IMG/VR virus record: IMGVR_UViG_3300023284_001417
Span: 1 to 21,310 of that record
From: a virus
DNA length: 21,310 nt
Direction: 5' to 3' (one strand)
The notes under the pieces were generated by a model, which had not been told where the DNA came from, ran no database searches, and saw only the letters and a list, made by a program, of their open reading frames with translations. Shown piece by piece: positions 3,575-9,969 of this stretch (position 1 is its first letter; each line of letters opens with the position of its first letter). The position numbers were made by a program, and so were the translations under genes.

Positions 3575-3816
3575 TGGATTGGTTGAGTTTTTTAGTCGGA
3601 ATTTGGGCGGGTTGGCTTTCACTTGTCGGCTTTCTTGTGTTTTGGGATCGCCGCATTCGGCGCGTGAATTGGAAGGCCGCACTTGACATCGTTCACGCCA
3701 TTCGCGGCGGGCGGCTTTGCGCCCTTTGCGGTGCCGCGATCAATCAAGAAGACGGGCGATGTTCGGCTTGCGGATGTTCAATTACCCATGCGGGCCGTGA
3801 AGGAAGGAGGGAATAA
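3574..3816 (+). CDS. Membrane-anchored zinc-ribbon protein
   Basis: This protein has 80 residues. One hydrophobic membrane segment lies near the N terminus (FLVGIWAGWLSLVGFLVF, about residues 5-22). It is followed at once by positive charges (DRRIRR), which favours an N-outside, C-inside orientation. The cytoplasmic part ends in a rubredoxin-like ribbon, CALCG then CSACGCS (Cys-x2-Cys-x10-Cys-x2-Cys). The start is coupled to the upstream gene (TGATG) and the stop TAA shares one base with the next ATG. A membrane-tethered zinc ribbon might recruit a partner to the membrane, but nothing here identifies the partner. Confidence 0.65.
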   Translation: MDWLSFLVGIWAGWLSLVGFLVFWDRRIRRVNWKAALDIVHAIRGGRLCALCGAAINQEDGRCSACGCSITHAGREGRRE

Positions 3817-4409
3817 TGGCAACCGCTTGCCCGCTGGATTGGCCCCCCGGATACAAGAGAACAAAGGTCAGGTTGGCCGGGCGCTTCCGAACTTCGTTCA
3901 CTTCAGCGCGTGATGGCCTGTCGGATGAACTGGACCGCTTGGGGGCGAAGTACCCTATTATTTCAACCAACATTGAATTGAAGGCAAACGGGATGCCGTA
4001 TGCGGGCCGGGCCAACCCCGAAGACCCTGGGGTTGCCGTCTATTTCGAATTGACTGGTCGGACCCTATCCATTGCCTGCGATCGTTGGACACATATTCAA
4101 GACAATCTTCAAGCAATCCGCTTGACAGTCGCGGCGATGCGCGGCCTTGACCGTTGGGGCGTGTCTCAAATGATGGACCGGATGTTTCGGGGCTTTGCAC
4201 AACTGCAATCCGGGCCGGATGATTGGCGGAACATTCTCGCCCACATGGGAGACACGCCTGACAATCTGATCGAAGTCAATATCAATTACCGGCTTCTTGC
4301 CGCTGAACTTCACCCGGATCGCGGCGGAAGTCATGAAAAAATGAGCCGATTGAATCAGGCGCGGGACAACGCGATCAAAGAACTTGGGGGCTCGAATGGG
4401 GAAGCCTGA
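3816..4409 (+). CDS. C-terminal J-domain (DnaJ-like) phage protein
   Basis: This 197-residue protein starts at an ATG with AAGGAGGGAATA in front. The last third is a compact J domain: an NYRLLAAELHPDRGG segment with the His166-Pro-Asp168 motif needed to stimulate DnaK, then the ARDNAIKEL helix. The N-terminal 130 residues form a separate, unnamed region (GVAVYFELTGRTLSIACDRW, then a helix IQDNLQAIRLTVAAMRGLD). The same overall order occurs in J-domain proteins of other phages as I recall them. It may couple host DnaK to replication or virion assembly. The J domain is clear from the motif; the partner and substrate are unknown. Confidence 0.75.
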   Translation: MATACPLDWPPGYKRTKVRLAGRFRTSFTSARDGLSDELDRLGAKYPIISTNIELKANGMPYAGRANPEDPGVAVYFELTGRTLSIACDRWTHIQDNLQAIRLTVAAMRGLDRWGVSQMMDRMFRGFAQLQSGPDDWRNILAHMGDTPDNLIEVNINYRLLAAELHPDRGGSHEKMSRLNQARDNAIKELGGSNGEA

Positions 4410-9535: not shown

Positions 9536-9557
9536 GGCCGCCATTAAGGAAAACTTG

Positions 9558-9806
9558 GGCCGTGTTTGGCGTTCTGGTGAAAACGTCGGAAAAGTGGGGT
9601 GACTGGTGAAGCGGATTGGGAGGCGAAAGCCGCTAGAACCAAGAGCTGACCCTGAAGGAACATTAGGAAAAGGGTAGGGTGTTAGTCCGTGGGGTTGCCA
9701 TTCCCCAGACCAAGAACATTTCACTGGAATAAGGAGTCGTTCGAAACGTGGATCTGTCCCTCACTACTGAGGGTCCATAGTCGGTTCGAATCCGACAACA
9801 CGGCCA
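9558..9806 (+). ncRNA. Candidate structured RNA with tRNA-like ends (tmRNA-like or interrupted tRNA)
   Basis: No protein frame fits here, but the ends fold like a tRNA. GGCCGTGTT (9558-9566) pairs perfectly with AACACGGCC (9797-9805). Directly 5' of that strand is a canonical T arm, GTCGG-TTCGAAT-CCGAC (9780-9796). After the 5' acceptor strand come TG, then a D-arm-like hairpin GCGT-TCTGGTGAAA-ACGT (9569-9586) with GG in the loop, at exact tRNA spacing. The anticodon arm is replaced by about 190 bases. Their ends form a longer helix (AGTGGGG 9593-9599 with CCTCACT 9759-9765, extended by GAC/GTC). Inside are a possible H-type pseudoknot (GCGG 9611/CCGC 9630 with TTGG 9616/CCAA 9639) and a GGGG/CCCC hairpin at 9685-9710. 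This is the architecture of tmRNA, but I see no standard tag sequence and no complete CCA. Confidence 0.5.
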
Positions 9807-9916
9807 TACTTTCTTGAACACGGAAGGGGGTGGTTGTTGGTGATTATTTAAACCGCCGACCGGCGGACACCGAGACTCAAAACCCAATTGCAGAGTTGGA
9901 TTAAGGGTGCAACAGG

Positions 9917-9956
9917 TGGGCGCGGGGTTTATGCCCGACCCCGCGCCCAATTTATT
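9917..9956 (+). terminator. Terminator-like 12-bp GC-rich hairpin
   Basis: TGGGCGCGGGGT (9917-9928) pairs perfectly with ACCCCGCGCCCA (9938-9949) around a 9-base loop and is followed by ATTTATT. The T tract is broken, so termination may be partial. It would end transcripts carrying the structured RNA. The rest of 9807-9916 holds two smaller hairpins (CCGCC/GGCGG at 9853-9866, and a 6-bp stem with loop GCAG near 9895) but no gene. Confidence 0.5.
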
Positions 9957-9969
9957 GGGATGAAGATCG

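Follow-up and report, generated by a model that had tools for sequence, protein, structure and literature searches.

The intergenic element described here is probably derived from a tRNA, rather than being a tmRNA or a tRNA that carries an intron. It lies in a 21,310-base virus fragment from IMG/VR that belongs to a little-known phage, and that fragment, at its full length, is the window of this analysis. The two ends of the element pair as the acceptor stem and T arm of a tRNA do, and this pairing is above chance, though not overwhelmingly, because the feature was selected from a larger scan. Our preferred reading, to which we assign a probability of about 40%, is that of a tRNA-derived phage RNA in which the acceptor and the elbow would act as a processing and stability module.

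Genomic setting and tRNA-like ends

The element occupies a gap of 434 bases (9536-9969) that lacks a codon signal in all six frames, consistent with the intergenic location given in the first-pass annotation, which was made from the sequence alone. The proteins encoded in the window include a RuvC-like resolvase, a large terminase, a portal and a head protein. Another, encoded at 3816-4409, is DnaJ-like (phrog_9210) and shares 46% identity with a protein of Synechococcus phage Ssp-JY39, the closest database relative among the window proteins searched. ARAGORN at default settings found no intact tRNA in the contig.

The 5' acceptor-like strand, GGCCGTGTT (9558-9566, plus strand, like all features of this gap), matches 9797-9805 perfectly, and all nine pairs are Watson-Crick. 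Reading the letters directly, we find the T arm GTCGG-TTCGAAT-CCGAC at 9780-9796, with five Watson-Crick pairs and a consensus loop, flush with the 3' acceptor-like strand AACACGGCC, which is followed by an A (9797-9806). The first-pass annotation had reported both the 9-bp match and the canonical T arm adjoining it, and both are as described. In tRNA register, the acceptor is a 7-bp stem (9560-9566/9797-9803) stacked flush on the 5-bp T stem. The 3' terminus departs from this register: a CCA is present at 9804-9806, one base away from positions 74-76, and no discriminator base follows the acceptor. This misregister counts against a tRNA-derived RNA, as does the low probability of the T stem in the free folding ensemble (only ~0.13).

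A search for a promoter-like site for the element found none, which also counts against that reading. Downstream, a hairpin at 9917-9949 (13 pairs, of which 10 are G-C), followed by ATTTATT, is a possible terminator of the RNA; the region holds two terminator-like sites, compared with 1.6 expected by chance.

Comparison with chance

To place these ends against chance, we simulated 300 windows that match the dinucleotide composition of the window, and sought flush pairs within 500 bases. Under loose rules, a five-pair T arm with nine flush Watson-Crick pairs arose at a rate of 0.0033 per simulated window, having been seen once among the 300. Requiring a strict T arm lowers the estimate to roughly 0.1 x 0.0017, or ~2e-4 per window. 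Once a T arm is given, the chance of the 9-bp match is ~0.002. For comparison with natural sequences, we analyzed 1.1 Mb, largely from phage loci plus a few contigs of bacteria and archaea, in which 24 T-arm-like sequences occur. The longest flush upstream complement was 3-6 bp for 21 of these 24 and 8 bp for two; only the present element reaches 9 bp. The earlier judgement that such a match would be unlikely by chance is thus upheld by the loose estimate (~0.003), by the strict one (~2e-4) and by the uniqueness of the match among the 24.

Folding of the interior

Four inner features were assessed: a D-arm-like hairpin, a helix said to close the insert, a second hairpin next to the T arm, and the insert as a whole. 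The D-arm-like hairpin (9567-9589) is present as first described, with six pairs (9568-9573/9582-9587) and a loop, CTGGTGAA, that contains GG, but it is marginal, with an equal score in 26 of 500 shuffles of the stretch and an equally good folding energy in 9%. Its pairs have a probability of ~0.08 in the free ensemble, which counts against a tRNA-derived RNA. Free folding favours over it a rival, competing helix of 12 bp (9571-9582/9719-9730), whose probability reaches 0.91. The 10-bp helix proposed to close the insert in the manner of a tmRNA P2 (5' strand 9593-9603, pairing with 9756-9765) is not above chance. The complementarity is there, but 102 of 1000 shuffles (10%) match the best duplex at that place, and the ensemble probability of the helix is ~0.

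A hairpin at 9748-9778, which the first-pass annotation had not listed, is a stronger local feature than either of these. It is formed by TGGA/TCCA and CCCTCA/TGAGGG around a CTAC loop; its stability is equalled by 1.5% of shuffles (7 of 200 in a second test), and the CCCTCA/TGAGGG pairs have probabilities of 0.72-1.0. Class II tRNAs (the Leu/Ser/Tyr type) carry a long variable arm just before the T stem, and the hairpin ends one base 5' of the T stem, which is the class II variable-arm position. When the acceptor, D and T arms were imposed together, the predicted energy was -85.0 kcal/mol compared with -87.0 kcal/mol without constraints, a penalty of 2 kcal/mol that does not exceed the uncertainty of predictions of this kind. 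The most tRNA-like of the modelled folds would consist of the acceptor, a D arm, a foreign domain, the variable-arm-like hairpin and the T arm, that is, a class II tRNA elbow whose anticodon arm has been replaced.

Between the tRNA-like ends lie ~190 bases of unrelated sequence (9588-9779). The part that would replace the anticodon arm (9588-9747) is predicted, with the acceptor, D and T arms imposed, to form a domain closed by 9593-9601/9717-9725. However, the predicted stability of the whole insert does not exceed that of its shuffles (z +0.70), which counts against a tRNA-derived RNA; we also found no support for the pseudoknot that had been suggested within it. No Rfam family matched the insert, and weak matches to Vax2os1_3 and ar15 were rejected as being at chance level.

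Comparison with tmRNA and with intron-containing tRNA

The first-pass annotation had interpreted the element as a reduced or divergent tmRNA, or as a tRNA interrupted by an unusual insert. Like tmRNA, the element has a long insert within tRNA-like ends and lacks an anticodon, and ARAGORN at a 50% threshold does call a tmRNA with the tag ADPEGTLGKG* (score 76.8). Of the 161 shuffles for which ARAGORN makes any call, 85 attain that score, and the Rfam tmRNA covariance model (RF00023) returned nothing even at E 10. No convincing tag frame with a resume codon was found: tmRNA tags usually end in hydrophobic residues, and the sole frame, ADPEGTLGKG, does not, which agrees with the earlier remark that no standard tag is present. 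The connector helix is not above chance, and the CCA is one base out of register. Finally, the third acceptor pair of tmRNA is a completely conserved G-U (PMC3985003), whereas that of the element is G-C in the 7-bp register and C-G in the 9-bp register. We consider a reduced tmRNA the least probable of all the readings, with very little chance of being correct.

A tRNA gene with an intron in its anticodon loop, possibly a minimal group I intron, would also place tRNA-like halves around a noncoding insert. Neither ARAGORN at default settings nor the Rfam tRNA model (RF00005) detects a tRNA in the element. When introns were allowed and the threshold was lowered, ARAGORN offered a tRNA-Ser(GGA) whose intron would span 155 nt (9593-9747), but a score as good was obtained with 244 of 300 shuffled inserts. 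We also scanned a grid of splice start and end points that leave 18-45 bases. No splice gave an anticodon arm above chance (54 of 60 shuffles did equally well or better), and whether the sequence was taken as continuous or spliced, the best anticodon-arm score was below that of most shuffles. The motif TTAGTCC, read directly at 9682-9688, resembles a group I S element; however, the group I intron model (RF00028, Intron_gpI), which spans the P3-P8 core with the guanosine site in P7, has no match at E 10, as the first-pass annotation had anticipated in noting no recognisable core. To our knowledge, 155 nt is below the length of known group I introns, which likewise counts against an intron. With splices at the level of shuffles and no group I match, an interrupted tRNA is very unlikely, though slightly less so than a tmRNA. 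The calls that ARAGORN made at lowered thresholds, tRNA-Ser(GGA), tRNA-His(GTG) and tmRNA, were all rejected, because shuffling the insert yields tRNA-Ser and tmRNA scores as high, and no splice beats the shuffles.

Search for related elements

No homologue was found in GenBank phages, plasmids, IMG/VR or genomes sampled at one per species, collections that may omit near-identical records. With blastn against phages and plasmids, nothing rose above chance level, and weak matches in Sinorhizobium (E 0.1) were rejected. Exact and degenerate patterns in IMG/VR were empty or at chance level. A pattern of acceptor, gap and T loop matched seven times in 85k prokaryote genomes, and none of the seven matches has a five-pair T stem. 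The neighbouring proteins and the terminase have no close relatives in IMG/VR or in the genomes searched. A terminase alignment yielded 80 distant loci (~28-38% identity), among which we found no like element with nine flush pairs, nor was there one in three phages that share single proteins with the window. The missing homologues, and with them the missing covariation, count against a tRNA-derived RNA.

Irregular tRNA-like sequences do occur among the terminase relatives. One locus (L011, 7023-7077) carries, next to normal tRNAs, a tRNA-like sequence of 55 nt that folds into acceptor, D arm and T arm and lacks an anticodon arm. In a second (L069, 7549-7661), the D arm is Leu-like, a T arm is present, the anticodon region is very short and the variable arm is long (~44 nt); ARAGORN passes over this sequence at default settings. 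Departures from the cloverleaf therefore exist in distantly related phages. Further tRNA-like features were noticed at other loci. At L038 (6558-6983), AGTGCA occurs three times upstream of one T arm, the nearest copy giving a tRNA whose anticodon loop has 6 nt. At L030 (6805-7122), two T-arm-like sequences that draw no tRNA call have readable hairpins between them and a weak acceptor match at a distance of 318 nt. At L056 (2454-2470, minus strand), a T arm is followed by CGCTCCGACCA, giving a tRNA-like 3' end for which ARAGORN calls no tRNA; this end may be an attachment site.

Alternative origins

Two further readings are close rivals of a tRNA-derived RNA. The element may be a dead phage tRNA, functionless, which lost its anticodon arm to a deletion and an insertion and whose outer arms have not yet decayed. 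No anticodon arm survives and the structure of the insert is at chance, as such a history would have it; fragments of tRNAs are common in prokaryote genomes (PMC9897764), and distant terminase relatives have irregular tRNA-like sequences, such as that at L011 7023-7077. However, all nine acceptor pairs and all five T-stem pairs are intact, which is unexpected in an old relic, and the contig has no intact tRNA that we could find. We regard this origin as unlikely, yet as the foremost competitor of a tRNA-derived RNA.

Only a little less credit goes to the idea that just the 3' end is tRNA-derived, for instance as an attachment site that copies the 3' end of a host tRNA, or that the T arm itself is a chance occurrence, the 9-bp match being coincidental in either case. 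Partial tRNAs are a product of integration at tRNA genes (PMC9897764), the D arm and the P2-like helix are near chance, 8-bp flush complements accompany two of the 23 other T-arm-like sequences, and this window was presumably chosen from among many. The match itself, at ~0.002 given the T arm, argues the other way. Moreover, an encoded CCA would leave the 3' end without the discriminator base that a host tRNA has there. A scan of ~20 ORFs identified no integrase, which may also speak against an attachment site, although the contig is a fragment and many of its ORFs match no family. Under this explanation, the 27-mer GTCGGTTCGAATCCGACAACACGGCCA would be the part shared with a host tRNA 3' end.

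Proposed interpretation as a tRNA-derived RNA

The reading that we prefer, a tRNA-derived phage RNA, starts from what is observed: acceptor and T-arm pairing above chance, a noncoding gap, no anticodon arm and no known RNA family. In its favour are the unique nine flush pairs, the marginal D-arm hairpin at the right distance, the hairpin at 9748-9778, the low cost of the tRNA-like fold (2 kcal/mol) and the 434-base gap without codon signal. The D arm and variable arm, transcription, cleavage by RNase P and whatever function the insert may have are inferences. The product would be a noncoding RNA of ~245 nt representing the upper half of a class II tRNA (acceptor, D arm, variable-arm-like hairpin and T arm), in which about 130-160 nt of unrelated sequence would stand in place of the anticodon arm and make decoding impossible. 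The insert would be freed from an intergenic transcript as a discrete RNA with protected ends, through cleavage by host RNase P on the 5' side of the acceptor stem and trimming of the opposite side by tRNA 3' enzymes.

The element resembles class II tRNAs in its flush acceptor and T arm, its marginal D-arm-like hairpin with a GG loop and its long hairpin in the variable-arm position; it differs from them in its ~160 extra bases, in its CCA out of register and in having no anticodon arm above chance. The proposed processing has parallels that also count for a tRNA-derived RNA, as RNase P acts on other phage RNAs that are not tRNAs, namely M3 RNA and the phage-derived antisense C4 RNA of P1 and P7 (PMC11143913), although no sequence relation between those RNAs and the element is apparent, and the processing of the element itself is a proposal. 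A more ambitious version, in which the element would found a new class of phage noncoding RNA whose class II elbow and acceptor, lacking an anticodon arm, close a functional domain of ~160 nt and guide its excision by tRNA-processing enzymes, is doubtful; we rank it below the dead-tRNA and attachment-site origins and above the tmRNA and the interrupted tRNA. Of the earlier interpretation as a whole, the tRNA-like ends above chance stand, while the tmRNA and interrupted-tRNA readings are unsupported.

As a relic, the element would add to the decayed tRNAs of phages. Should it be transcribed and processed, it would be a phage RNA distinct from tmRNA in which the tRNA elbow is used to package a different RNA domain, and annotators would then have reason to check T arms that tRNA finders reject in the intergenic gaps of phages.
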